Shown here in pieces: positions 20,042-43,894 of a stretch of 43,894 nt of DNA. The stretch is taken from contig JAIMBH010000011.1 in NCBI GenBank assembly GCA_023511485.1, positions 33,485 to 77,378 on the forward strand. Direction: 5' to 3'. The translations under genes were made by a program, and so were the position numbers. Every line of letters begins with the position of its first letter. The stretch's first letter is position 1. A model generated the notes under the pieces. It ran no database searches, was not told where the DNA came from, and saw nothing but the letters and a program-made list of their open reading frames with translations. The stretch comes from Bacillota bacterium. GTDB lineage: Bacteria; Actinomycetota; Aquicultoria; Aquicultorales; Aquicultoraceae.

Positions 20042-21727
20042 CTACTGCATATCGATGTAGTTGCAAGGACATTCTTCTGCACATTTCTTGCAGCCTACGC
20101 AGGCATCGAGGTTCATCTTGTAGCGCGGCCCGAATTCATTCTTTTCGGGCAACTTCTTGAACACACTGTACGTGCAGAAGTTATAGCAATTTCCGCAATC
20201 GAAGCACATACCACAGCTTAGGCACCTCTCGGTTTCAGCATTGGCAGCTTCCTGGGTAAGCGTAGATACAACCTCGTTGAAGTTGCTTATCCGGTCTGCA
20301 ACTGCTATATGCGATTTCTCAGCCCGTGGCATATTCGTATAGTAACTCATTGCCATAGTTGAATATCTTACAACCGGTGGCAGATACTCCTTCGGCAGGT
20401 CCTCGCCCTTAATGTAGGCATCGATTGCTTTCGCTGCTTTATGGCCAAGGCCGATTGCCTCGGTTACCGTTCCAAGCTTGTTAGTGACGTCACCGCCTGC
20501 AAATACTGCCTCGTCATTTGTCTGGCCAAACGCACTCTGCGTTGTAATCCAGCCATTCTCATCAAAGCTCTCAAGACCTGTGAAGTCCGGACCTTGCCCT
20601 ATAGCCGGAATAACCATATCCGCTTCTATAACGAACTCGGAGCCTTCGACCGGAACTGGCCGGCGGCGCCCGCTTGCATCCGGCTCACCAAGCTCCATCC
20701 TTATGCACTTCAACCCGGTTACTTTATCACCATCGCGAATTACTTCTACTGGAGCAGCAAGGAACTCAATATGAATGCCTTCATCCTCAGTGTCCTTGAT
20801 TTCCTCATCAAGTGCAGGCATTTCCTCTTTGGTCCTACGGTATACAATCTGCGGAGTAGCTCCTAACCTAAGGGATACCCTTGCAGCGTCAACCGCGCTG
20901 TTGCCACCGCCGATTACAAGAACTTTTTTACCTGAGAGATCGATACTCTCGCCTGCGTTAATTTTATGCAGGAATTCTACGGCGTTCATAACGCCTTCGC
21001 CTTCCTCGCCAGGTATGCCAAGGTTCCATCCTACATGCGCACCGATACCAAGGAATACAGCTTTATATTCTTTCTTTAGATCATCTAAGGATACATCCTT
21101 GCCGATCTTTGTGTTGTACTTAATCTCAACGCCAAGTTCTTGAATCTTTGCGATTTCGGCATCAAGAATATCGTCTGGCAGCCTGTATGTTGGAATACCA
21201 TACCTCAACATACCACCAGCTTTATCGAATGCCTCGAAGATAGTTACAGCGTAACCCCTTCTTGCAAGTTGATACGCGCAGGAGAGTCCTGCCGGACCGG
21301 AACCTACAACCGCTACCTTCTCTGAACGCGACTCATCTGTTATCTTTTCAAACTTTAGATTGTTTTGAATACCGTAATCGCCAAGGAATCTCTCTATCTG
21401 GTTTATTGAAACGGCCTCATCTTTTTCTTTCCTATTGCATTCGCTCTCGCAGAAATGCGGACAAACTCGCCCTAAGGTAGCCGGCATCGGGTTTGTATCG
21501 GTTAATATCCTCCATGCCTGCTCATATGACTGCTCGTAGCTTCTACCGAAATATTCGGTCTGGGCGATCGACGTTAAAAACGATCTTATCGCATTGCTGC
21601 TCGGGCAGGCATTCTTACAAGGCGGAGTTTTTTCGTTGTATTGCGGACGCAAATATGCATCTTCGCCCTGACGGCTATAGCTAACTGCACCAATCGGCCG
21701 CTTTCTCGTTTTAAGTACTACCGCCAT
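20042..21727 (-). CDS. dsrL: DsrL-like iron-sulfur flavoprotein, NAD(P)H-linked
   Basis: A 561-residue relative of glutamate synthase small subunits. The N-terminal Fe-S region has CKNAC (37-41) and CPHFCESEC (89-97), followed by FAD-binding GSGPAG (142-147), NAD(P)-binding VIGGGNSAVDAAR (about 276) and a C-terminal ferredoxin-like tail of two cysteine clusters (CLSCGMCFDCGNC about 500, CVGCKKCAEECPC about 545). DsrL in Allochromatium passes electrons between NAD(H) and DsrAB. Its position right after dsrABD supports a DsrL role, in which NADPH or NADH would feed sulfite reduction here. Start ATG 21727 has GGAGGG; an upstream in-frame start at 21760 has none. A generic GltD-like oxidoreductase is the alternative. 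Confidence 0.78.
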   Translation of the reverse strand: MAVVLKTRKRPIGAVSYSRQGEDAYLRPQYNEKTPPCKNACPSSNAIRSFLTSIAQTEYFGRSYEQSYEQAWRILTDTNPMPATLGRVCPHFCESECNRKEKDEAVSINQIERFLGDYGIQNNLKFEKITDESRSEKVAVVGSGPAGLSCAYQLARRGYAVTIFEAFDKAGGMLRYGIPTYRLPDDILDAEIAKIQELGVEIKYNTKIGKDVSLDDLKKEYKAVFLGIGAHVGWNLGIPGEEGEGVMNAVEFLHKINAGESIDLSGKKVLVIGGGNSAVDAARVSLRLGATPQIVYRRTKEEMPALDEEIKDTEDEGIHIEFLAAPVEVIRDGDKVTGLKCIRMELGEPDASGRRRPVPVEGSEFVIEADMVIPAIGQGPDFTGLESFDENGWITTQSAFGQTNDEAVFAGGDVTNKLGTVTEAIGLGHKAAKAIDAYIKGEDLPKEYLPPVVRYSTMAMSYYTNMPRAEKSHIAVADRISNFNEVVSTLTQEAANAETERCLSCGMCFDCGNCYNFCTYSVFKKLPEKNEFGPRYKMNLDACVGCKKCAEECPCNYIDMQ

Positions 21728-21827
21728 ATTTCCCTCCTTTTTTACCTCAGGCGATACCACACCTCACCCAAGGCTTGGTTCAAAATCATTGACCTATTGC
21801 CAGTGTGTGTTCGCCTAAGCGAGCTAT

Positions 21828-22079
21828 TTATTGATTTGCAGAGCCTTCTACGCGCGGAAGCTCTATTGAACTTCCGCCATAGTAGCCATATACACACCGG
21901 CCGGAGTCAATAAGCATCTTTATAGCATCCTTGCAATCCTGCTTGGACACCTTGTCCCCGTATTTTGATGTCATTGCTTTTGTCAGGTCAGTTGATTTTA
22001 ATTTCTTCTGCCCCGCACTTTCGGCAACTAGCTGATACATTTCATCAGCAATTTGCTCAATTGAAATTTCTCCAGCCAT
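21828..22079 (-). CDS. dsrD: DsrD, winged-helix activator of sulfite reductase
   Basis: An 83-residue protein directly after dsrB (12 bases). DsrD is a small winged-helix protein; biochemical work has shown it allosterically activates DsrAB for sulfite reduction. Here the helices EQIADEMYQLVAESAG and TDLTKAMTSKYGD and the wing SGRCVYGYYGGSSIEL (about 62-77) fit. Its presence is a known marker for the reductive direction of the pathway. AGGAGG precedes the ATG by 8 nt. Confidence 0.93.
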   Translation of the reverse strand: MAGEISIEQIADEMYQLVAESAGQKKLKSTDLTKAMTSKYGDKVSKQDCKDAIKMLIDSGRCVYGYYGGSSIELPRVEGSANQ

Positions 22080-22091
22080 GTTAAATTCCTC

Positions 22092-23168
22092 CTAATACCT
22101 ATTCTGTAGCGACCTCTTGTAGGTCGTACCGGCGTGCCTGAAGTCATCGAGATGGTACTTGGTAAACTCAATACCAGTAAGATCGAAGAACTTCGGCCAC
22201 CCTATCCTGTGTATCCACTCGCCAACACGCTCATATGGTTTTGCGTTCTTGGCATATACTTCAACAATATTCTTTACTGCTTCCGTAGCCTCAGGCCATC
22301 TCGGTGGATTATTCGGCAGGTAATGAACTGCCAACTTGGTAAACATTGGCTCTGTCCTCGCGTTAGAGATTTTTCCTCCAACCCAGATCGATACACCGTC
22401 ATTTAATGCATCTGCAATTGGCATTGCCGGGCACACTGTGTAGCAGTTGCCGCAGTACATGCACTTATCTTCATCAACCTTAACCGTTGCCCTTCCCTCG
22501 ATTGAGGTTGGCCTTATTGCGTTGTTCGGGCATGACGCAACAGTTGTCGGAATCTCGCAGAGATTCGGAAGCGATTCATGATCAATCCTCGGAGGCGTCC
22601 TGTGAACACCAAGGATTGCAATATCAGATGCGTGAACAGCGCCACACATGTTAAGGCAGCATGCCACCGCAAGTCTTACCTTGTGCGGAAGCTTCATTGA
22701 TGTAAAGTAATCTGACAGTTCATCCATAACAACCTTAACCAAACCAGATGCATCGGTTGCTGATGAATGGCAGTGCACCCAGCCCTGAGTATGAACAATG
22801 TTTGATATCGATTTGCCAGTCCCACCTACTAGAGTGAACTCACTTAGCTCATTAATTAACGGATCAATGTTGTCCTTGTTGGCTAACAGGAACTCAACAT
22901 TGTTTCGACTGGTAAACCTCAGGTAACCATCAGCATACTTTGATGCTAATGCCGTTAGCTTCCTCGCAAAGTTAGTTGAAATCAACCTTGGGGAAGCGGC
23001 GCGCACTGTATATATCACATCGCCAGATTCCGCAGTATGAGCAAGCACGCCTGGTTTCAATATCTCATGATATTTCCACTGGCCATAATTTTTCTTGATA
23101 ATTGGATGCAAGAACTGCTCATAATGCGGTGGGCCTATATCCGTTCTTCTTTCTGTCGTTGTCGACAT
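22092..23168 (-). CDS. dsrB: dissimilatory sulfite reductase beta subunit
   Basis: Beta subunit of the siroheme enzyme that reduces sulfite in the cytoplasm, coupled to DsrC. The 358-residue protein has the conserved [16 protein letters not shown]-like segment (about 126-140), cysteines for the coupled siroheme/[4Fe-4S] site at ACCLNMCG (169-176), SCPNN (about 212-216), and an inserted ferredoxin domain with [11 protein letters not shown] (about 235-245). GGAGG lies 9 nt before ATG 23168. It is separated from dsrA by 96 bases holding a hairpin. Length and motifs are normal. Confidence 0.97.
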
Positions 23169-23215
23169 TTATTTTACCTCCCATTTCATAAAATATTAAT
23201 GCTTATCTAAATCCC

Positions 23216-23268
23216 GTAGACTTAGCTAGCGTTCAATTAACCACCTGCATGCTTTCATATAAGTCTAC
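23216..23268 (-). other. dsrA-dsrB intergenic hairpin
   Basis: A perfect 9-bp inverted repeat (GTAGACTTA 23216-23224, TAAGTCTAC 23260-23268) with a 35-nt loop that covers the dsrA stop codon and the gap before dsrB. It lacks a T run on either side, so an mRNA processing or stability element is more likely than a terminator. Confidence 0.45.
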
Positions 23269-24443
23269 TCTTCTTCGTAATACTCCTCGTAGAAGATGTA
23301 TGGATTATCCCTCGGCTCTTTGATCATCTGCGGTATTGGCTCCAGACCGATACCCTCTATGAAGTTCGCTAGGCCAACACGCTCAACACACTCACCGATT
23401 CTCTCTCTGTTTTTGCCGTGTTCATCCCAGAACTCCCATATTCTTTCGATAAGGTCGTGCAATTCCTCAAAGTCGTCCATTTTCATGAATGGAACCATGA
23501 CCGAACCGAAGAGAGCACCCTCAACAATAGGAGCCTTTGCACCAAGAACGATAGCTGCACCACGTTCTTTTCCTACTTTAAGAGCCTTTGGTAGCGTGTT
23601 AATGCAGTGCATGCACTTCACACAGTCGCTATTGTCAATTTTGATCTCCTTGCCCTCAACACTTATGCATTTTGTTGGGCATTTATCAACTACAGCACCC
23701 TGAATATCCATACCTGAGTCAACGTACTCTGCAAACGCAGCCTGATCTACTTGGATATCGTCTTTCCAGATTCCGATAATACCCAAATCTGACCTTGCTA
23801 TAGCAGCCGTACAGTCGTTTGGGCAACCAGACATTTTAATCTTAAACTTATAGTTAAACATTGGCCTGTGAAGCTCGTCTTGATACTTATGGGTTAAATC
23901 ATATGTTAGAGCCAAAGTATCATAACAAGCATTTTGACACCTTGCGGGGCCTACGCAGCAGCTCGGTGTCCTAAGGTCAGAACCAGAACCGCCCAGATCC
24001 CAATCCTTTGCTGTTAGAGCCCTGAAAGTAGGTTCGAGCTCGTCAGTAACTGTTCCAAGAAACACAAGGTCACCGGTTGATCCGTGCATGTTAAGAAGTC
24101 CTGATCCATGCTCATCCCATATATCAAGTAGCTCGTTTAGAGCATCAGCGGTGTAGAACCAACCCGACGGCTGGTTAACACGGACGGTATGGAAGTGCGA
24201 TACCCCAGGAAATTCATCAGGTAGAGCCGAGTATCTTCCAATAACACCTCCACCATAACCCATTACTCCGACCAGGCCACCATGTTTCCAGTAGCCTCTC
24301 TTGTCGGTATAGGACTTTTCAAGCTGCCTTAGCAAGTCCTTGACCATGGGTTTTTTGTCGGCCATAGTCTTCAGATCTTTTACGAAGCTTGGCCATGCTC
24401 CCTTTTCCAACTCATCTAAGAGTGGAGTCTTTAGGTCCGACAT
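23265..24443 (-). CDS. dsrA: dissimilatory sulfite reductase alpha subunit
   Basis: Alpha subunit of DsrAB. The 392 residues include the substrate-arginine region [20 protein letters not shown] (51-70), the siroheme-[4Fe-4S] motif CCVGPARC (162-169) with CPNDC (207-211), and the ferredoxin insertion (Cys255, Cys259, Cys274, Cys277, Cys280). It is somewhat shorter than the Desulfovibrio subunit but all motifs are present. AAAGGAGG precedes the ATG. It is downstream of dsrP with an 81-base gap, so dsrMKJOP, dsrABD and dsrL are probably one transcript or two overlapping ones. Confidence 0.97.
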
Positions 24444-24524: not shown

Positions 24525-25787
24525 TTATCTACTACCAACTAATTCTGCTTCGACGATTTCATCAAGTTCGGTTACCTTTGGCTTACCCTCCGATACATAC
24601 CTACCCTCAACCGGTAGCAAAGGTAGCATCCTCAAACCTAAGATATAGACGAATGCCACGAATGCAAAAATGCCTATTAGCTGCATCCATTCATAACCGG
24701 ATGGTAGATAATTCCATATCTTACCATCGCCAAATGCACTACTTATCTGATAACCGGGTAAAATACTGATCGGCAGCATCTGACCTGGCAGGATGATAAG
24801 CATTCTTTCGCATAGCACTCCAAATACGTGAAGCCCGCCTGCAGTTAGAATCCACTTAAGATTATCTTTTGTGCGCTTATATAGCAGTAAGAAGACCGGT
24901 ACTATACCGCCTATAGTTATGAGGCCACCCCAGAATGCCCATTGGAAGAACTGTCCTCCATGCTCACCGAATAATACGAAAAGCTCGCCTTCTCTGTGCT
25001 CAGGTACATACAGGTGCATCAGATGCTCAACGGCCATGAGATATATAACAACGATTATCAATCCAAGCATTACCTTGCTTAACTGCCTGAAGAAGCGGAC
25101 ATCTACCGATCTTCCGGTCAATTTAAATGTAAAATACAAAACATTCATGATCATACCGCTTCCTGATGACAGAGCAGCGACAACAAATGCTATTGGAACA
25201 ACCGGCGTAAACAGCATCTCTCTCGCATTTGCGATAGCAAAAATAAATCCAGTACCTGTATGAACAAAAACAGCCGCTACTGTAGCCGCTATTGCAAGCC
25301 CTGTCATCGCCCTGTCGTGCTCCTTAAATTGCGCCCATAGATAAAAGATGCCTATGACCATATACGTCGTATAGAAGAACGCGTTTAGCGATAGCATCGA
25401 TGTCGGGTTAATATTATTTGGATCAAACACTATAAAGAGCCTGTCCGGTCTACCCCAGTCAGTAATAAGCAGCAATAGCGCGGCCAGGATAAACAATACC
25501 GCTAAAAATCCTCCGACTCTTGATAGTACTTTATACTCTTTCTGGCCAAATACGGCAGATAGCGCCGATATAATAAACGATCCTGCACTCAAGCCAACGA
25601 AGAGTACAAAGACAACCTTTGGTCCTGCCCATGTTACTTGATGATTCAAACCGGTAAGATACGGGCCGCCTATAAACCTTATGTAAGAAGCTATAAGCCA
25701 GCCTAGCGTTAGGGCACCCAGGATTCCCATTACCCAGTAATATTTGGCTCCTTTAGCTTTTACCGGTGCGAAATAATACTTAGCCAT
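24525..25787 (-). CDS. dsrP: DsrP, NrfD-type quinone-interacting membrane subunit
   Basis: A 420-residue protein of about ten membrane helices in the NrfD/PsrC superfamily. It is the menaquinone-facing membrane anchor of the DsrMKJOP complex, partnering the Fe-S subunit DsrO. Visible family features are the N-terminal YYWVMGILGALTLGW helix, an LNHQVTWAGPKV loop and conserved TDWGRPDRLF after helix 3 (about 108-117). AGGCGG precedes ATG 25787. It is last in dsrMKJOP, 11 bases after dsrO. Confidence 0.95.
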   Translation of the reverse strand: MAKYYFAPVKAKGAKYYWVMGILGALTLGWLIASYIRFIGGPYLTGLNHQVTWAGPKVVFVLFVGLSAGSFIISALSAVFGQKEYKVLSRVGGFLAVLFILAALLLLITDWGRPDRLFIVFDPNNINPTSMLSLNAFFYTTYMVIGIFYLWAQFKEHDRAMTGLAIAATVAAVFVHTGTGFIFAIANAREMLFTPVVPIAFVVAALSSGSGMIMNVLYFTFKLTGRSVDVRFFRQLSKVMLGLIIVVIYLMAVEHLMHLYVPEHREGELFVLFGEHGGQFFQWAFWGGLITIGGIVPVFLLLYKRTKDNLKWILTAGGLHVFGVLCERMLIILPGQMLPISILPGYQISSAFGDGKIWNYLPSGYEWMQLIGIFAFVAFVYILGLRMLPLLPVEGRYVSEGKPKVTELDEIVEAELVGSR

Positions 25788-25798
25788 ATCCGCCTCAC

Positions 25799-26524
25799 CT
25801 ATAGTCCTTTGTAGAATACTCCAGGGCCTACGCGCTTCTCAGGCCTTAGAACTTTTACGTTTCCAGTAGCAATTATCTTCGCTACCTCACTATTTGGATC
25901 ATTCATATTCCCAAAAGTAAGCGCTTCGTGCGGGCACTTCTCTACACATGCAGGTTTTTTGCCCTCATCGACTCTTTGTACGCAAAACGAACACTTTGTT
26001 GCAACGCCTACCATCATCGCAGGAACATTGGCGTTTGTTATGTTCTCATTCTTCCTGAAGATAATAGACCTAGCCTTATACGGGCATGCGTAAACACAGT
26101 ACCTACATCCAATACACTTGTGCTCATCTACAAGAACAATCCCGTCTTTTCGCTTAAATGATGCTTTTGTTACGCACACCTCTACACAAGGTGGGTCATC
26201 GCAATGCTGGCACATGATCGGCAAATGCCTTTCCTGAGTGCCTTCTAGCTCCTGCTTTATATCCGCAACCCTTAGCCAATACGCATCATATCTCGGATCA
26301 CCCCATGAAGGCACGTTGTTTTCCTCCCGGCAGGCTCTTTCGCATACTTTGCATCCCGTGCATTTATCGAGGTCTACCGCCATTGCCCATCTGGTCTTTG
26401 ACTTCGACTCGCCTTTCGGGCTCTCTTCTTGCGCCGTGACCAAATATTGCGCGCCGGGAGCTATAATAGAGCTTAAAGCAAATGCTCCTCCAATTTTAAG
26501 AAATGTCCTTCTGTCCATTCCCAT
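25799..26524 (-). CDS. dsrO: DsrO, exported four-cluster ferredoxin subunit
   Basis: A 241-residue Fe-S protein with a twin-arginine signal (DRRTFLKIGG, then a hydrophobic stretch, about 4-30), so it acts outside the membrane next to DsrJ and DsrP. Four [4Fe-4S] sites are visible: CTGCKVCERAC (about 55-65), CQHCDDPPCVEVC, CIGCRYCVYAC and CSFCVQRVDEGKKPACVEKC. This is the usual DsrO layout. It passes electrons within the DsrMKJOP complex. Confidence 0.96.
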   Translation of the reverse strand: MGMDRRTFLKIGGAFALSSIIAPGAQYLVTAQEESPKGESKSKTRWAMAVDLDKCTGCKVCERACREENNVPSWGDPRYDAYWLRVADIKQELEGTQERHLPIMCQHCDDPPCVEVCVTKASFKRKDGIVLVDEHKCIGCRYCVYACPYKARSIIFRKNENITNANVPAMMVGVATKCSFCVQRVDEGKKPACVEKCPHEALTFGNMNDPNSEVAKIIATGNVKVLRPEKRVGPGVFYKGL

Positions 26525-26590
26525 CGCTTGATCTTCTCCTTAATCTTCAAGCACATCCATTTGTCTTAAAGGAGTATTTCTACTCAGCTC

Positions 26591-26962
26591 CTACTTCTTT
26601 GAAGTCGGTGCAGAATGGCAACCGCCGGCTTCAACAAAGCAGGTAGGCTTCACGCCTGCATAATTATGGCACCGATCACAAAACTTTGACTTATCGGTGT
26701 GGCATGTAAAGCAGTTCTTAAGGCTGTGCTTCTTAGTCCTGATTCCGAGCCTTACAGCCCGCTCCCTCTCTTCCTTCAATATATTCATGTGGTTGGCACG
26801 CATATACGCGGTATCTTCCACACATTTCGTTGCATTTGTTGGAAGCTCAAGCTTTGGCTGTACGGCCCCTTGTAGTATCTGTCCGTTACCTATTGCAACC
26901 AAAAACGGCGACGCTAGAATAACGGCAAAAATTACAAATGCACCTATCGCTTTCATTTTCAT
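26591..26962 (-). CDS. dsrJ: DsrJ, multihaem cytochrome c with altered third site
   Basis: A 123-residue periplasmic-side cytochrome subunit anchored by an N-terminal signal helix (about 4-30). DsrJ normally carries three c haems, one with His/Cys ligation. Here the conserved Cys47 (KCVEDTAYMRANHM) and two ordinary sites, CFTCH (84-88) and CDRCH (95-99), are present. The third site is not CxxCH: the sequence runs Cys108, FVEAGG, Cys115, His116, leaving AGGCH. The haem count is therefore two certain and one doubtful. It overlaps dsrK by 4 bases (ATGA). Confidence 0.93.
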   Translation of the reverse strand: MKMKAIGAFVIFAVILASPFLVAIGNGQILQGAVQPKLELPTNATKCVEDTAYMRANHMNILKEERERAVRLGIRTKKHSLKNCFTCHTDKSKFCDRCHNYAGVKPTCFVEAGGCHSAPTSKK

Positions 26963-28497
26963 TCCTTTGCTCCAAGTACTAAAGCCCTACCAACAAGCTG
27001 ATGAATTCCACCAGCAGTTTCCATTGGAACTCCATACATCGGCATGATTTTTGTAAATTGCGCCTTGCAAATCGCGCATATTAAAGCCATGAAGTTCACA
27101 CCATGTGTTTCCATTACAGAATGCAGCGCCTGCATTCTCGGCATAGCTCCTTTTGCCCGCAGGTCTACAATCTCATCGGTCAAAAGGCCGCCTCCACTGC
27201 CACAGCAGAATGTCTTCTCCCTTATAGTTTCCGCCGGCATATCGACATACTTGTTGACGACTTTTTTAATCAATTCCCTTGGAATATCGAACTGACCTCC
27301 GGGTTTGTCACCCATTCTAGTCGCACGCGCTACGTTGCACGAATCATGGAACGTTACCACGAATTCATCATTTGCAGATTTGTCGATTTCTAAAGCACCC
27401 TTGTCTATCAAGTCATTAGTGAATTCGCATATGTGCTGAGGCCTTGGATATTTAGGATTTAAGGTATCAAATGGACCTATCAGTGTATTCCAAAACTGGT
27501 AGGCAACCCTCCATGCATGACCGCATTCGCCCACAATCAGACGCTTTGGCCTTAGCTCATATATCGCATCTTTAATACGCGATGCAATCTTTTGCATCGC
27601 ATTGTAGTTTCCGATAAACATGCCAAAGTTTCCAGCCTCAGAAGCTGTTGAGCTCAAGGTCCAGCTAATTCCGGCCTGATGGAATACTTTTGCATATCCC
27701 ACCAGCGACTCTATATGTGGCGAGGCAAAGAAATCTGCCGATGGTGTAACAAGAAGAACCTCGGCATCCTCAACATCCATAGGAAGTTTAACCGGAATTC
27801 CTGTATCTTCTTCAATCTCCTCCTCGACGAATTCTATCGCATTCTGCAAAGCTGGTCCGCTCATTCCCAAGTTATTACCTATCTCATAGACCTTACCGAT
27901 AATCTCGTTTACATACTTTTGCCCGAGCCCGATAGAATCCATGATTTCCCTTGCTGCCATCGATATCTCCGCAGTATCAATTCCATATGGACAATATAGC
28001 GAACACCTGCGGCATTGTGAGCACTGATGGAAATAGGTATACCATTCGGCTAGCAGCTCAAGGTCAAAATCAACGGCTCCTGCAACTTTTCCAAAGATCT
28101 TTCCTTCTCTCGTAAAGTACCTTCGGTAAACTTTTCTAAATAACTCCGCCCTTGCCACGGGCATATTTTTTGGATCTTTTGTTCCTAAGAAAAACTGGCA
28201 CTTATCAGTACAAGCACCGCACCTTACACAAATATCCATATATACCTGAAGCGATTTGTACTTTTCAAGAAGCTCACCCATTCTACGAATGGCGGCTTCC
28301 TGCCAGTTATCAACCAGTTCACCAGGGAACCCCAGCTTCTCCTGTACTTCTGGCTTAGCAACGTGACATTTATAGTGAGACGCGGCACCCGTAACTATTT
28401 TTGGTGTCTTTATTTTGCCGGTTAGCTTTGGTACCGGTTCTCTCTCTTTTTTCTTAGGCGCAGAAGTAATTAATTGTTCTTTTGTTATATCTGCCAT
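26959..28497 (-). CDS. dsrK: DsrK, HdrD-like catalytic Fe-S subunit
   Basis: A 512-residue cytoplasmic membrane-bound subunit that reduces the DsrC trisulfide/disulfide. It has two [4Fe-4S] motifs, CVRCGACTDKC (90-100) and CSQCRRCSLYC (159-169), and CCG-type cysteine segments for the non-cubane active-site cluster: GECGHAW (about 332), HDSCNVA (about 390) and FCCGSGGG (about 430), closing with CAICKAQF. This matches HdrD/DsrK. The ORF lies 6 bases after dsrM and overlaps dsrJ, so translation is coupled. Confidence 0.96.
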   Translation of the reverse strand: MADITKEQLITSAPKKKEREPVPKLTGKIKTPKIVTGAASHYKCHVAKPEVQEKLGFPGELVDNWQEAAIRRMGELLEKYKSLQVYMDICVRCGACTDKCQFFLGTKDPKNMPVARAELFRKVYRRYFTREGKIFGKVAGAVDFDLELLAEWYTYFHQCSQCRRCSLYCPYGIDTAEISMAAREIMDSIGLGQKYVNEIIGKVYEIGNNLGMSGPALQNAIEFVEEEIEEDTGIPVKLPMDVEDAEVLLVTPSADFFASPHIESLVGYAKVFHQAGISWTLSSTASEAGNFGMFIGNYNAMQKIASRIKDAIYELRPKRLIVGECGHAWRVAYQFWNTLIGPFDTLNPKYPRPQHICEFTNDLIDKGALEIDKSANDEFVVTFHDSCNVARATRMGDKPGGQFDIPRELIKKVVNKYVDMPAETIREKTFCCGSGGGLLTDEIVDLRAKGAMPRMQALHSVMETHGVNFMALICAICKAQFTKIMPMYGVPMETAGGIHQLVGRALVLGAKE

Positions 28498-28503
28498 CTC
28501 ACA

Positions 28504-29226
28504 CTATCCTTTCACAGCCCATGGATTTACGTGCCTGACTTCCCTGGGTTCATCAACCTGTGTCCTTGTTGGGCTAAAGAATATTCCGCCTGCATGCATA
28601 AGTTTGCTAAACGGAAAATAGATAAGTAGCAGCATTACCAATGTAAAGTGCGTGATGAATATAATATCCATCGGCATCGCTGTAGGACTAAACGACACTA
28701 TGCCCATTATATATTCCTTAACGCCAATTATATCGGTCCTTACATAATACTTTGTAAGGATACCGGTCGCCGCTATAAGCATCAAAAGAACTAATATGAT
28801 GTAGTCCGTCAGCAATGATATATAAAACGTCCTATCCGTAATCAGTCTTAAAAGAAATAGGAATATAAGCGGTACAAAGAAAATAAAGCCCGCATAGGCC
28901 TCAAAAGTTGTGATCCAAGCCAGTGAAGCCGGAGCTGGGGTAAAGAAAAACCTTAAATGCTTTATCAAGACAAGAGCCAGGCCAAGATGCATTATGTACC
29001 CACCCAGCCAAATTATCCTGTTGCTGTAGAATAGACTTTTAAAGACACCTACCTCTTGAACCACTCTATAGACAGCACCAGCTCTTGTAGTTGGACCAGG
29101 CGTTAGAGTAATGTTTAGCGGTGAAGGTGTCTTTGCATATTTAATAATTCTCGAAAGGAATCCGACTAAAAATATGGCGATAGCCACATAAGCAAACGCA
29201 GTGTAGAACAATGATATCACGTTCAT
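28504..29226 (-). CDS. dsrM: DsrM, NarI-like dihaem b membrane subunit
   Basis: A 240-residue protein with about six membrane helices. His80 and His90 in GGYIMHLGLALVLIKH and His193 and His211 in FITHFT...KLMHAGG fit the axial ligands of two b haems, as in NarI. It exchanges electrons between menaquinone and DsrK. It is the short, NarI-sized form of DsrM without N-terminal extension. A GGAAGAG stretch precedes ATG 29226. Its upstream region holds the inverted-repeat element at 29297-29448. Confidence 0.94.
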   Translation of the reverse strand: MNVISLFYTAFAYVAIAIFLVGFLSRIIKYAKTPSPLNITLTPGPTTRAGAVYRVVQEVGVFKSLFYSNRIIWLGGYIMHLGLALVLIKHLRFFFTPAPASLAWITTFEAYAGFIFFVPLIFLFLLRLITDRTFYISLLTDYIILVLLMLIAATGILTKYYVRTDIIGVKEYIMGIVSFSPTAMPMDIIFITHFTLVMLLLIYFPFSKLMHAGGIFFSPTRTQVDEPREVRHVNPWAVKG

Positions 29227-29560: not shown

Positions 29561-29893
29561 TTATACGCAGCCAGTCGGTTTTGGTAGTCCGGCGATCTTG
29601 CAAGCCTGAAGAGCTGGGCCAGCTGGATAAAGCTGATAGAGATAAGCGTTGTTGCCTTTCTCCGGACCAAACATCTTCTTCATTTCTTTGATCAAGATCT
29701 TGATCATTGGAGCGATTTTGTACTCTCTGTAGTAGTCTCTAAGGAAGTTGACTACCTCCCAGTGAGCCTCGGTCATCTCAATGCCCTCTTGCTGAGCGAT
29801 GTAGTTAGCTACCTCTTCATTCCAGTCATCTAGATTTACCAGGTAGCCATCATCATCTGTCTCATACATCTTTCCATTAAACTCAAAGCCCAT
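29561..29893 (-). CDS. dsrC: DsrC, sulfur-carrier protein
   Basis: A 110-residue cytoplasmic protein that carries the sulfite-derived sulfur as a trisulfide between DsrAB and DsrMKJOP. The flexible C-terminal arm has both required cysteines: Cys109, penultimate, and Cys98, exactly ten residues apart in ACKIAGLPKPTGCV. The single-copy TusE-type homologues lack the upstream cysteine, so this is true DsrC. AGGGAGG precedes the ATG. It has its own promoter (29994-30022) and lies between dsrN and dsrM. Confidence 0.97.
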   Translation of the reverse strand: MGFEFNGKMYETDDDGYLVNLDDWNEEVANYIAQQEGIEMTEAHWEVVNFLRDYYREYKIAPMIKILIKEMKKMFGPEKGNNAYLYQLYPAGPALQACKIAGLPKPTGCV

Positions 29894-29972: not shown

Positions 29973-30022
29973 TTTGTACCAAATGTTACGATGAGCTTAA
30001 CAGTTATCCTACCTTTTGTCAA
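29973..30022 (-). promoter_or_regulatory. dsrC promoter with AACATTTG element
   Basis: Reading the minus strand: TTGACA (30017-30022), a 17-base spacer, TAAGCT (29994-29999), 6 bases, then AACATTTGGTACAAA (29973-29987). The same arrangement with identical spacings precedes sat. The start of transcription would be about 29988, giving a leader of about 95 nt. The downstream element overlaps the expected start and may be an operator. Confidence 0.72.
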
Positions 30023-30100
30023 GTATATAGCGAATAAATTTTCAAGTTTTTGCTATATTAAATAGACTCACTAGCATTAGTTTTTGTATCACAAACTATG

Positions 30101-36417: not shown

Positions 36418-37584
36418 TTAGTTAACGGCCTTCTCTAGACCCCTAACAGGTTCTGGTTTTACTGCCGGCTTATGTCGCATCGCTTTTATCATGCTGCCCA
36501 AGATAATCGTTGCACCAAGTGCAAGGGCAAATGCCATTATGTAGAAGCTTATGCTGCTAAGGGTAGGCACTAAATCTTTTGATATGCTGGTTAAGCCAAG
36601 CTGGTTGGTATACTTTGGAATAGCAAATCCCCTACTAAAGGCAACTATTAACATAATTGTACCCATTACGACCTTTATCATATAGTCCTTTACATAAGTG
36701 GTACCCAAAGCACCCAGTTGTACACCAAAAAGCGATCCGGCAAGAATTAATAGGACCAGCCTGATATCTATATTGCCTACCAACGCCCATTCCGTCGAGC
36801 CGACAAAACCCATTACAAATGCGATAACTAGCTCTGTTGCGGACGCTACCAGACTTGATGCACCAATTACATACATCATTCCCGGTACGCCAATAAACCC
36901 TCCAACCGCAATCGTTGCTGCAAGAAGACCGGTTGCAAGACCAACTGGTACAGTTATCCACATAGATATCTTAAGGTTTGCAGTTTTGAAGTGCATCATT
37001 GGAGGGATGTTTAGTTTTTGCAGAGCTAGAGCCAACCGAGGTTGTGGAGCTGGTCCAGTTTGTTTTTTTGTTTTCCAGGCGTCGTAGAAAACATAGCTGC
37101 CTACTGTTATAAGTATGACAAGAAAAGCAAAGCTAACATATAGATTTGAGCCTGCTTCTCCCCACATATGTTGTATGTATTTTTGAATCTTAATACCGAG
37201 TTCTACGCCAACTGATGCTGAAATACCTAAAGTCAATCCCAGCTTTAGATCGACCTGTCCATACTTGTGACGCTTAATTGCACCGACTAAAGCTTTTGGG
37301 AACTTGTGGCACATGTTGCTCGCGACTGCGACAAGTCCAGGTACGCCAAGACTCATCATTGCAGGAGTTAAAACAAAAGCGCCTCCCGAGCCGATAAAGC
37401 CACTTACCAATCCACCTATAAAACCAACAATAAACAAGAACACCGCATTAAAAATAGTAAGTTCAATGAACTTATTCCCCTTGAACGCTGTAACTGCCTC
37501 ACCGGTAGCTAATGCCGGTGCTGATAACAGCAGAAGCATTAATATTGCTAATAGCGCAGGGATGATAATTTTCCGTCGTGACAT
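36418..37584 (-). CDS. TauE/SafE-family permease (sulfate/sulfite transport candidate)
   Basis: A 388-residue membrane protein with a signal-like first helix (about 7-26) and about eight helices. It shows the two inverted TauE repeats (GFIGGLVSGFIGSGGAFVLTP about 55-75; GLLAAT...GGFIGVPGM about 215-235) and NMCHKFPKALVGAIKRHKYG (about 91-110), typical of the large TauE proteins carried near sat/apr/dsr genes in sulfate reducers. Some of these are considered sulfate or sulfite transporters; direction and ion are not settled by sequence. AGGGTGA precedes the ATG. The 78-residue membrane gene upstream is a likely partner. A short part of this gene is duplicated near 39990. Confidence 0.85.
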   Translation of the reverse strand: MSRRKIIIPALLAILMLLLLSAPALATGEAVTAFKGNKFIELTIFNAVFLFIVGFIGGLVSGFIGSGGAFVLTPAMMSLGVPGLVAVASNMCHKFPKALVGAIKRHKYGQVDLKLGLTLGISASVGVELGIKIQKYIQHMWGEAGSNLYVSFAFLVILITVGSYVFYDAWKTKKQTGPAPQPRLALALQKLNIPPMMHFKTANLKISMWITVPVGLATGLLAATIAVGGFIGVPGMMYVIGASSLVASATELVIAFVMGFVGSTEWALVGNIDIRLVLLILAGSLFGVQLGALGTTYVKDYMIKVVMGTIMLIVAFSRGFAIPKYTNQLGLTSISKDLVPTLSSISFYIMAFALALGATIILGSMIKAMRHKPAVKPEPVRGLEKAVN

Positions 37585-38434: not shown

Positions 38435-39382
38435 TTGAGTAAAAGAGTAGTAGTTGTTTTTGTAACCGCCTTCATTTTAGTTTTATTAATTGCAAGCGCC
38501 GTCGTGGCAGCTTCAGGGCCAATCGACAGCCCTGTTCAAGGAACACCCTGGTGGGTCTGGCCCTTGGCATTGTTTGTGCTTACTTTTGTTATGGGAATTG
38601 TAGCAATCCCCGCAGGTGTAGGAGGCGGGGTTCTTTTTGTACCCATCGTAAGCAGCTTTTTTCCGTTTCACCTGGACTTTGTTAGAGGTGCAGGCTTAAT
38701 GATCGCCCTCTCGGGTTCGCTTGCAGCCGGACCGGGTCTTCTCAAGAAGGGACTCGCAGACCTTAGATTGGCAATGCCCGTCGCCCTTATAGCATCTATA
38801 TTTTCAATTGTGGGTGCGGCGGTAGGTCTTGCACTGCCACAAAGGATCGTACAGCTTGGCCTTGGAGGAGTCATCCTGGCTATCGTTGTAGTTATGATTT
38901 TGGCTAAAAAATCTGAGTACCCGGCGGTTAAAACGCCAGATTCGCTCTCGACAGCCCTAAGGATCACCGGTATTTACCATGAGGATTCGACTAAGCAGGA
39001 TATCGACTGGAAGATTCACCGCACCCCCGTCGGATTAGCATTATTTGCTCTAATTGGATTTATGGCCGGAATGTTTGGCCTTGGTGCTGGCTGGGCAAAT
39101 GTTCCTGTTTTAAATCTGGTAATGGGTGCACCGCTTAAACTATCAGTGGCAACTAGCAGTTTTTTACTATCAATAACCGATACTTCTGCAGCATGGGTCT
39201 ATATAAACAAAGGAGCAATATTGCCACTTGTTGTAGCCCCTTCGATTATCGGTATGATGATTGGGGCTTTTGTCGGAGCCAAACTTTTAGCAAAAGCGAA
39301 ACCTTCAGCAATTAGATATGCAGTCATAGCAATGTTGTTTTTATCAGGATTAAGGGCTTTCCTTAAAGGCTTTGGCATATAA
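38435..39382 (+). CDS. TauE/SafE-family permease, module copy 1
   Basis: A 315-residue permease with a first helix (about 4-24) and about eight further segments. TauE repeats are visible as IPAGVGGGVLFVPIV (about 54-68) and GLGAGWANVPVLNL (about 210-223), followed by SITDTSAAWVYIN. It shares these and most of its length with the product of 40484-41458, so the genes are paralogues; it is only distantly related to the 36418 permease. Start is TTG 38435 with GGAAGGAGG about 10 nt upstream. A three-helix membrane-protein gene follows at 84 bases. Confidence 0.85.
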   Translation: MSKRVVVVFVTAFILVLLIASAVVAASGPIDSPVQGTPWWVWPLALFVLTFVMGIVAIPAGVGGGVLFVPIVSSFFPFHLDFVRGAGLMIALSGSLAAGPGLLKKGLADLRLAMPVALIASIFSIVGAAVGLALPQRIVQLGLGGVILAIVVVMILAKKSEYPAVKTPDSLSTALRITGIYHEDSTKQDIDWKIHRTPVGLALFALIGFMAGMFGLGAGWANVPVLNLVMGAPLKLSVATSSFLLSITDTSAAWVYINKGAILPLVVAPSIIGMMIGAFVGAKLLAKAKPSAIRYAVIAMLFLSGLRAFLKGFGI

Positions 39383-40483: not shown

Positions 40484-41458
40484 ATGACGCGCAGAATAAC
40501 AGTACTCTCTACCTTGTTTACCGCCTTCATATTTTTAATGGTTTTAGCACAACCTGTGTTTGCCTCAAGCAACAGCTCAGCGGCAAACTCATCAACGACA
40601 GTGTGGTGGATTTGGCCTTTACTACTATTTGTCGTTACTCTTGCTATGGGTATAGTCGCCGTACTCGGAGGAGTTGGCGGTGGGGTTCTTTTCACGCCCA
40701 TAGTAGGTAGCTTCTTCCCATTTGGCATGGATTTTGTTCGTGCTGCCGGCTTATTGGTGGCTTTATCCGGTGCGCTTGCAGCCGGGCCGGGTTTGCTTAA
40801 GAAAGGACTTGCCGATCTTCGTCTGGCTATACCGGTTGCTTTAATAGCATCTGCGGGCTCTATTGGCGGCGCCATGCTGGGGCTCTGGGTCTCAAAACTA
40901 CCCGGCGGCAAAGACATTATACAGGTCAGCCTAGGCGTCGTAATCTTAGCCATCGTTCTTATAATGTTAATGGCTAAGAAGTCGGAGTTTCCTGAAGTTA
41001 AAAAGGCCGATAAACTATCAACAGCCCTTAAGATTACCGGTGTTTATCATGAGCCTACAACCAATCAAAGCATCGATTGGAAAATTCATAGGACCCCAAC
41101 GGGGCTTTTCACTTTTATCTTTATAGGTTTACTTGCCGGAATGTTTGGCCTCGGAGCCGGATGGGCAAATGTACCGGTTCTTAACCTCTTGATGGGTGCT
41201 CCGCTAAAGATATCGGTCGCAACCAGTAAATTTTTGCTTTCCATAACCGATACTTCTGCAGCATGGGTCTATATTAATAGTGGAGCCGCAATACCAATGA
41301 TTATTGTCCCATCGATAATAGGGATCATGTTAGGCTCATTTATCGGAGTTAAGCTGCTCACTAAAACCAAACCAAACATAATCAAAATCATCGTCATATT
41401 TATTCTTATCGTTTCAGGCTCAACTTCTATACTTAAGGGCCTACACATTATGAAATAA
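40484..41458 (+). CDS. TauE/SafE-family permease, module copy 2
   Basis: A 324-residue paralogue of the 38435-39382 permease with the same layout: signal-like first helix (about 8-26), GGVGGGVLFTPIV (about 61-73), KKGLADLRLAIPVALIAS (about 106-123), GLGAGWANVPVLNL (about 222-235) and SITDTSAAWVYIN. A Ser/Asn-rich stretch (about 29-40) follows the first helix. GAGGAAGG precedes the ATG. The three-helix gene follows after 49 bases. Ion specificity cannot be read from sequence; proximity to sat makes sulfate or another sulfur oxyanion the leading guess. Confidence 0.85.
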   Translation: MTRRITVLSTLFTAFIFLMVLAQPVFASSNSSAANSSTTVWWIWPLLLFVVTLAMGIVAVLGGVGGGVLFTPIVGSFFPFGMDFVRAAGLLVALSGALAAGPGLLKKGLADLRLAIPVALIASAGSIGGAMLGLWVSKLPGGKDIIQVSLGVVILAIVLIMLMAKKSEFPEVKKADKLSTALKITGVYHEPTTNQSIDWKIHRTPTGLFTFIFIGLLAGMFGLGAGWANVPVLNLLMGAPLKISVATSKFLLSITDTSAAWVYINSGAAIPMIIVPSIIGIMLGSFIGVKLLTKTKPNIIKIIVIFILIVSGSTSILKGLHIMK

Positions 41459-42036: not shown

Positions 42037-42107
42037 CTTACGTTTTTAAGACAGTCGATATGCTGGCCTTTCCTTATCTATAACCAGTAAACTTATTTGC
42101 TACTTAC

Positions 42108-42167
42108 TTGACAAATAACTGTATTAATGCTAAGCTTTATGGAACATTTGTTACAATCCGAATGTTC
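42108..42167 (+). promoter_or_regulatory. sat promoter with AACATTTG element and palindrome
   Basis: TTGACA (42108-42113), 17-base spacer, TAAGCT (42131-42136), 6 bases, AACATTTGTTACAAT (42143-42157). The element overlaps an inverted repeat GAACATT (42142-42148) / AATGTTC (42161-42167). The first 14 bases of the element and both promoter boxes recur with the same spacing before dsrC. Transcription would start near 42143, giving a leader of about 157 nt. Confidence 0.78.
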
Positions 42168-42299: not shown

Positions 42300-43520
42300 A
42301 TGTCAAAATTAGTTCCCCCTCATGGCGGTGGCGAGTTAAAGCCGCTACTACTCGAAGGCGATGAGCTAAAAGAAGCATGGGAAAAGGCGCAAACTCTTGA
42401 GAAGGTCATGATGACTTCTCGCGAAACCGGAGACCTTATTATGATGGGTATCGGTGCCTTCACCCCACTCGAAGGTTTCATGACCAAAGCTGACTGGAAA
42501 GGTGTTTGCGATGAGTACAAGATGGAAAATGGTATCTTCTGGCCTATCCCAATCACCCTTTCCACCTCAAAAGAGCAAGCTAAAAATTTAAAAGAGGGTC
42601 AAGAAGTTGCGTTAGTCGACACTGAAACCGGCGAACTTATGGGCAGCATGGAGATCACCGAGAAATACGAGATAGACAAAGTCTATGAGTGCAAGCAGGT
42701 GTTTAGAACTGACGATATCGATGGTCACCCAGGTGTGCAGAAGGTTATGGCACAGGGTGATGTAAACCTAGCAGGTAAAGTCAAAGTCTTTAGCGAGAGC
42801 TACTTCCCAGAGATGTTTAAAGGCGTTTACATGCGCCCAGCTGAAACAAGAAAAGCTTTCGAGGAGAGGGGCTGGAGCACAGTCGCTGCGTTGCAGCTCA
42901 GAAACCCAATGCACCGCTCACACGAATTTCTAGCAAAAATCGCAATTGAGGTAACCGACGGTGTCCTGATCCACCAGCTGGTTGGTAAGCTAAAACCGGG
43001 TGATATTCCGGCTGAGGTTCGCGTAAAAGCTATCGACAAGCTTGTCGAACTTTACTTTGTACCAAACACCGTTATTCAGGCAGGATACCCGGCGGAGATG
43101 CGTTATGCAGGACCGCGTGAGGCACTCCTTCATGCAACCTTCCGCCAGAACTACGGCTGCAGCCATCTTATTGTTGGCCGTGACCACGCCGGTGTTGGTG
43201 AATACTATGGGCCATTTGATGCTCAGCATATTTTTGACGAGATCCCGAAGGATGCCCTTATCACAAAACCACTCAAGATTGACTGGACCTTCTATTGCCA
43301 CAAGTGCGATGGTATGGCTTCAATGAGAACCTGTCCGCACGGCAAAGAAGATAGGCTACTTCTCAGCGGAACCAAGCTTAGGAAGATGCTCTCTGAGGGC
43401 GAAGAGGTACCGGATCACTTCAGCCGCCCAGAAGTTCTCGAGATTCTAAGAGAGTACTATTCAAGCCTTACAGAGAAGGTAGAAGTTAAATTGCACAAAT
43501 ACGCAGAGGGCGAGAAATAA
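42300..43520 (+). CDS. sat: sulfate adenylyltransferase (ATP sulfurylase)
   Basis: Activates sulfate with ATP to APS and pyrophosphate, the first cytoplasmic step of sulfate reduction. The 406-residue single-domain enzyme has [11 protein letters not shown] (199-209), the substrate-binding GRDHAG (293-298) and AQHIFDE. CHKC...CPH (Cys333, Cys336, Cys345, with His347 nearby) looks like the zinc site seen in homo-oligomeric prokaryotic Sat such as that of Thermus. No APS kinase domain is fused, consistent with a dissimilatory role. AAGGAGG lies 6 nt before the ATG. The upstream promoter resembles that of dsrC. aprAB is not found in the remaining window. Confidence 0.97.
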
Positions 43521-43894
43521 TATAGTAGAATTCAGAGGCCATAGAGATAGGTCCCGGGTAAGAGATACATGGCTCAGCTTATAAGCTGAGCCATGCCTTT
43601 TCTATATTATGCTCATCGAAGAACGCTGCCTTTACACAGGAATTGTAACCCTGACTTCCGCAATGCAGCACCCTAATTCTGGCATGGCATTACCTTTTCT
43701 ATGTGGTCTCAGCACCCTTTAAATGTCATCCCGAGCGAAGCCGAGGGATCTAAATAATATATTCATAATTCTTAAGAGACTAACAGGGCTTAGCACCACC
43801 AGTAGCGAATAATCATCCCTGACTTCCGCATTGGGACACCCAAGGCCTAGTTTTTATAAACAACCTTCTGATTTGTCAACTCACCCATCTCTGT
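43521..43894. other. 374-base non-coding end of window
   Basis: After the sat terminator the region holds a stretch TGTCATCCCGAGCGAAGCCG (43727-43746 approx.) of a type often found as dispersed intergenic repeats, and two copies of CCCTGACTTCCGCA (43649-43662 and 43817-43830) each followed by a loosely similar CACCC-containing tail. No gene is supported. Confidence 0.5.
43569..43594 (+). terminator. terminator of sat
   Basis: A perfect 13-bp inverted repeat (ATGGCTCAGCTTA / TAAGCTGAGCCAT, 43569-43594) 49 bases after the sat stop, followed by GCCTTTTCTATATT. Confidence 0.88.

Follow-up and report, generated by a model that had tools for sequence, protein, structure and literature searches.

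The Candidatus Aquicultor family (Actinomycetota) is made up of uncultured bacteria that breathe sulfate. In the member studied here, sat, aprBA-qmoABC and dsrC-dsrMKJOP-dsrAB have one promoter-operator in common. This shared promoter-operator probably defines a small sulfate-reduction regulon in the family, in which a dimeric protein would block initiation of transcription, with a linked response regulator as the best candidate for that protein.

sat and dsrC carry the same promoter-operator

We analysed a stretch of 43,894 nucleotides (the window) from a 2.37-Mb genome of 58 contigs, with a completeness of about 100%. The Sat protein of the window shares 98% identity with the Sat of an Actinomycetota MAG and 86% with the Sat of Candidatus Aquicultor primus. 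On the opposite strand from sat, the window carries dsrC, dsrMKJOP, dsrAB, a dsrD-like ORF and an oxidoreductase gene in this order (Table 1). The aprBA-qmoABC genes were found on a separate contig, C12, where two genes follow them, one for a response regulator of the NarL/LuxR type and one for a HisKA_3 kinase with GAF/PAS domains. A run of 68 bases in the window is identical to the 3' end of the kinase gene, which indicates that sat is convergent with and adjoins the aprBA-qmoABC/regulator/kinase operon; the same gene order, with sat convergent with the kinase gene, was found on contig C1 of the relative G007. Several genes for TauE/SafE-type sulfite-exporter-like permeases and universal-stress proteins cluster around the sulfate-reduction genes (window 36418-37584, 38435-39382 and 40484-41458; L147:18773-19705).

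The initial annotation of the window had described a nearly superimposable promoter-operator before sat and dsrC, and both sequences and all spacings proved to be as claimed. The pattern TTGACA-N17-TAAGCT-N6-AACATTTG(T/G)TACAA preceded sat (42108-42156, plus strand) and dsrC (29974-30022, minus strand) with zero mismatches, while this 49-base pattern had no match in 100 dinucleotide shuffles of the window, even when three mismatches were allowed. Across the 2.37-Mb genome, the full pattern matched only upstream of these two genes, and the same was true of exact matches to TTGACA-N17-TAAGCT and of exact copies of the element AACATTTGNTACAA. The likeness between the two regions reached further upstream (TATTTGCTACTTACTTGACAAA at sat and TATTCGCTATATACTTGACAAA at dsrC) and included the TGn of an extended -10. 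The annotation had also called the two genes otherwise unrelated, which they are not, as both belong to one pathway.

Table 1. Positions of the genes and promoter-operator features (window coordinates unless a contig or locus is named)
Feature	Position	Strand	Basis
sat upstream box TTTGCTA, about -47 to -41	42096..42102	+	alignment of sites by gene class
sat -35 box TTGACA	42108..42113	+	
sat -10 box TAAGCT, preceded by TGn (extended -10)	42131..42136	+	
sat operator core GGAACATTTGTTAC, over predicted start (about 42143)	42141..42154	+	palindrome centre test
sat, ATP sulfurylase	42300..43520	+	Pfam PF01747 and PF14306
68 bases identical to contig C12:99-166 (3' end of histidine-kinase gene)	43582..43649	-	
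dsrC upstream box TTCGCTA	30028..30034	-	
dsrC -35 box TTGACA	30017..30022	-	
dsrC -10 box TAAGCT, preceded by TGn	29994..29999	-	
dsrC operator core GTAACATTTGGTAC, over predicted start (about 29987)	29976..29989	-	
dsrC, first gene of putative dsr operon	29561..29893	-	Pfam PF04358
dsrM, dsrK, dsrJ, dsrO, dsrP, downstream of dsrC	24525..29226	-	Pfam for M, K, O and P; dsrJ by position only
dsrA and dsrB	22092..24443	-	Pfam NIR_SIR
dsrD-like small ORF	21828-22079	-	named by position
FAD/ferredoxin oxidoreductase	20042-21760	-	
TTGACTTAAGTCAA sites in the hcpR loci of G000, G005 and G008	L268:1896 (adjoins hcp), L270:1823, L276:1416		

A third site upstream of aprB and the generalised module

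Scanning with a profile of the sat and dsrC upstream regions identified a further site with identical spacing about 335 bases 5' of the aprB start codon, in which the -10 box reads TATTAT. The three sites are covered by a generalised module, TTGACA-N17-TnnnnT-N6-RRCAWTTGnTAC, whose only exact matches in the own genome were those at dsrC, sat and aprB. The genome scan proposed in the initial annotation, with a look at the apr genes, thus placed the module at aprBA and found it to be rare genome-wide. When the sites of the family were grouped by gene, CTTGACAAA, TGnTAnnnT and AACAWTTGnTAC were invariant. The -10 box of relatives was TAAGCT, TACGCT or TATGCT, and TATTAT or TATCAT at apr; as it varies, it is the downstream palindrome that carries the information, and not TAAGCT, to which the annotation had given this role. 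An upstream box, TTTGMTA at about -47, was common to sat, dsrC and aprB (TTTGATA at aprB), and was absent at an SQR-like gene described below.

A loose search for the 14-mer of the operator with two mismatches gave 77 matches, no more than the reversed control (95), and we therefore used only matches with zero or one mismatch. Additional one-mismatch matches on contigs C8 and C14 were dismissed because they lie inside coding sequence. The leader of aprB, about 330-400 nt in length (L147:10402-10774 and relatives), showed partial conservation between genera, including some compensatory changes, and is possibly a structured leader; the leaders had no match to an Rfam family.

The module accompanies sulfur genes across the family

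We then relate the module to its distribution in relatives, where the annotation had suggested looking for it before sat and dsrC. It recurred upstream of dsrC in 10 of 10 sulfate-reducing family genomes and upstream of sat in 8 of 9, a conservation that spans five genera. All but one of 34 distinct module sites precede sulfur genes, namely dsrC (10), sat (8), aprB (8), decayed sat copies (4) and the SQR-like gene (3); the apr upstream region of G003 is off the contig. Pathway-bearing relatives had one to five exact matches each, except that in G009 every match had mismatches or a spacer longer by one base. The reversed pattern gave no match at up to one mismatch in all 36 genomes of the class. 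Moreover, no module was identified in G008, the sole family member examined without sat and apr; sat and aprA are missing from it, and its only dsrC is divergent. About 77 sat loci from other phyla showed no such palindrome, and the one-mismatch matches within the class but outside the family (G012, G015 and G019) were not shown to belong to sulfur genes. In G015, a distant class member, a near-perfect ACGTAACATTTGTTACGT (L251:254-267) lies over a promoter 5' of a gene for a small cysteine-rich protein without Pfam match, and may reflect chance or a related regulon.

The promoter-operator also persists where its gene does not. Four decayed sat copies have kept it intact (L192 in G003, L212 in G004, L219 in G002, and L194 in G005 at a contig end), and in the first three the module now lies 5' of genes for an RsbRD-domain protein and a dsrM-like protein. 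Since the module is intact while the sat coding part has decayed, and a dsrM-like gene follows in at least three of the four, the promoter has outlived its gene, and a second dsrM-type locus has apparently taken over the sat promoter. These observations bear on the reading that the sites arose by chance, or descend from duplicated promoters and have no role in regulation. The sat and dsrC spacers do have some bases in common, and strong promoters resemble one another; however, the empty reversed control across the class, the conservation over five genera and the retention of the module beside decayed sat leave this reading scarcely credible.

In G009, the sat site has been lost though the pathway remains, the apr site has two mismatches and the dsrC spacer is one base longer. 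The sat gene of G009 (L125) shares 98% identity with the sat of the window, yet G009 belongs to a different genus and no operator lies upstream; sat may have been exchanged horizontally, with its control lost. The SQR-like gene, encoding a pyridine nucleotide-disulfide oxidoreductase (L148:5235-6239), is divergent from the aprBA locus with tusA between them, and carries the module in G005, G006 and G007.

The operator is a palindrome over the predicted transcription start

The element is a 14-bp palindrome, GTAACAWTTGKTAC (ideal TGTAACAATTGTTACA), that runs from about -2 to +12 and so covers the predicted transcription start. The annotation had placed the sat and dsrC elements over the expected start, but had not noted the palindrome. 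The 14-mer reads GGAACAWTTGTTAC at sat, GTAACAWTTGGTAC at dsrC and GTAACAATTGGTAC at aprB, and the SQR-like gene of G007 carries the perfect 14-mer GTAACAATTGTTAC. Pairing peaked at a single centre, with an average of 6.55 of 8 pairs, compared with 3.5 at the next best centre and a mean of 2.1. Each gene has kept its own single mismatch in one half of the palindrome. Such a gene-specific fixed mismatch fits a protein dimer that tolerates one poor half-site, and speaks against an RNA hairpin. A short inverted repeat at the predicted 5' end of a transcript could act in RNA, as a 5' hairpin GUAAC-AWUU-GUUAC that stabilises the mRNAs; but all 18 dsrC and aprB sites had stem pair 4 broken and all 12 sat-type sites had pair 2 broken, in neither case with a compensating change, and the same mismatch was kept across genera, unlike in a hairpin. 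We rejected this reading on account of the fixed uncompensated mismatches, and consider it very improbable.

Each target promoter combines a consensus -35, an extended -10 and the palindrome, and with such boxes the promoters should be strong. Because a dimer bound at about -2 to +12 would block initiation, repression is most likely: a dimeric DNA-binding protein would sit on the palindrome and shut off intrinsically strong promoters. From the position of the sites, we infer that sat, aprBA-qmoABC and dsrC-dsrMKJOP-dsrAB would be switched together, and that in some species the SQR-like and dsrM-like genes would be switched with the pathway. For the signal, the obvious guess would be electron-acceptor or redox state.

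Another palindrome, GTAACAAATCTTAC, lies between aprA and qmoA (L147:7825-7838) and is conserved in three congeneric genomes. It is situated near -38 of an internal qmoA promoter, about 18 bases 5' of TATAAT, and a -35 box is absent. This position suits activation, so the factor might conceivably also activate, and an internal activated promoter at qmoA is possible. The activation-like position of this palindrome counts against blocked initiation as the main explanation, as do the loss of the sat site in G009 and the upstream box TTTGMTA, for which that explanation does not account.

Taken together, a dedicated sulfate-reduction regulon, as the annotation had proposed, is well supported by the restriction of the three own-genome sites to sulfate-reduction operons, the 33 of 34 distinct sites at sulfur genes, the empty reversed control across the class, the palindromy at one centre, the module kept beside decayed sat and its absence from G008. 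Coregulation through one operator, in a regulon confined to sulfate reduction, is the part of that proposal that stood; for the dedicated regulator itself, both identity and sign of control are our inference.

A linked two-component system is the best candidate for the regulator

The best candidate is the NarL/LuxR-type response regulator P0001 with its GAF/PAS histidine kinase, encoded directly 3' of qmoC and beside sat, in which we place slightly less than even confidence. According to Pfam, P0001 combines a receiver with a LuxR/GerE DNA-binding domain and its partner kinase is of the HisKA_3 type, and its PDB relatives are VraR (the closest solved structure), DevR and NarL. Its candidacy is based on linkage and co-occurrence. 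The regulator genes are linked to, and co-occur with, the module-bearing operons, and a P0001-like response regulator (at least 60% identity, orthologues or paralogues) was encoded by all ten genomes with the module but not by G008, although the joint absence of module and regulator rests on one pathway-less genome and the co-occurrence is thus not independent of linkage. Of the families that we found conserved in the sulfur loci sampled, only that of P0001 has a recognised DNA-binding domain. The one to seven paralogues of P0001 per genome count against singling out one protein. Upstream of response-regulator genes, the only copies of the operator were two-mismatch sites at two paralogues, near chance. 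A conserved TATAAT lies 7-12 bases before the response-regulator ATG (L220, L221, L222, L223, L224 and L227), which suggests that this gene is transcribed leaderless from its own promoter.

Alternatively, the palindrome could be bound by a one-component regulator encoded away from the sulfur operons, such as a MarR-, TetR- or Rrf2-type protein, with the linked two-component system acting elsewhere, perhaps at the TTTGMTA box. A strongly conserved palindrome of 14-16 bp over the start is typical of one-component repressors, and our regulator survey, made up of pattern searches and targeted stretches, covered part of the regulators of the genome; on the other hand, no one-component regulator gene was conserved beside the sulfur operons in the sampled loci. 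We regard this arrangement as rather unlikely, though more probable than the other rival readings.

Relation to HcpR, Rex and NarL-type systems

Control of dissimilatory sulfate reduction is known mainly from Desulfovibrio, through HcpR predictions and the action of Rex on sat and apr. One operator for sat, apr-qmo and dsr would show a whole respiratory pathway run as one regulon, and the switch sequence points to one undescribed regulator for it. For this uncultured lineage of actinobacteria, a defined site of 14 bp and a specific candidate protein are now in hand, and the module is a sequence tag for further regulon members in relatives.

The initial annotation had stated that the element fits neither HcpR nor Rex. 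Concerning HcpR this was not borne out: the operator core (ideal GTAACAATTGTTAC) is the same as GTAACnnnnGTTAC, the consensus reported for HcpR2 in clostridia and other groups (PMC1274295), though no HcpR2-type gene was found in the family genomes by PF13545 and PF00027 searches. In Desulfovibrio, HcpR sites are predicted at sat and apsAB, with repression (PMC545781, PMC1274295), and an HcpR-like gene is present in 11 of 11 family genomes. That this CRP/FNR-family protein binds the operator is nevertheless improbable. The sole family-wide CRP/FNR protein adjoins hcp and has the HcpR1-type helix SETISR, with Glu where HcpR2 has Pro; it also occurs in G008, which is without the module; and a perfect HcpR1 consensus, TTGACTTAAGTCAA, was identified in the hcpR locus of G000, G005 and G008. 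The hcp/hcpR loci carried this site and not the module core. In addition, the central AWTT is conserved in the family operator, whereas it is free in HcpR2 sites. Most of the remaining cNMP-domain matches fell in proteins about 640 aa long, and only G002 had an additional CRP/FNR gene. As the HcpR2 protein was not found and hcp has a different site, we do not class the module as an HcpR regulon.

Rex sites typically read TTGTGAnnnnnnTCACAA, with TTGTGA-type ends and a free centre; the dsrC and aprB sites show the reverse, with an invariant centre and no TTG..CAA ends. A divergent Rex site would find a precedent in Desulfovibrio vulgaris, where Rex represses sat (PMC7531388), and at some sat sites the sequence is TTGGAACAATTGTTACAA, whose TTG..CAA ends resemble those of Rex sites. 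A Rex gene (PF06971) is present in 11 of 11 family genomes, but these Rex proteins have a canonical helix and Rex also occurs in G008, which is without the module. Binding by Rex is thus highly improbable.

For the preferred candidate, the nearest comparison is with NarL/FixJ systems such as VraR, DevR, NarL, DesR and ComA, with which P0001 shares the domain make-up and the HisKA_3 kinase, while its operator binding is only predicted. Members of this family bind dyads, and some repress over the transcription start; we know of no characterised member that controls dissimilatory sulfate reduction. We tentatively suggest that a dedicated two-component system might control the entire pathway directly, through a palindromic operator over the start site and outside the classical sulfate reducers, in which case a core equal to that of HcpR2 would be read by an unrelated protein.

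As in the HcpR regulons of the CRP/FNR family (Rodionov 2004, 2005), the palindrome lies at sat and aps(apr) promoters, repression is predicted and the core equals GTAACnnnnGTTAC. In contrast, the core targets of HcpR2 are hcp genes, whereas the HcpR1-like protein of the Aquicultor family has its own hcp site, and the dsr operon, absent from the predicted Desulfovibrio HcpR regulon, is included here. As under Rex control in D. vulgaris, a repressor site would lie upstream of sat, with a redox link to sulfate activation; unlike the Rex site, the family operator has another base pattern and a conserved centre, and also covers dsrC. The system would work like these regulons, with a different pairing of operator and regulator and with the dsr operon included.
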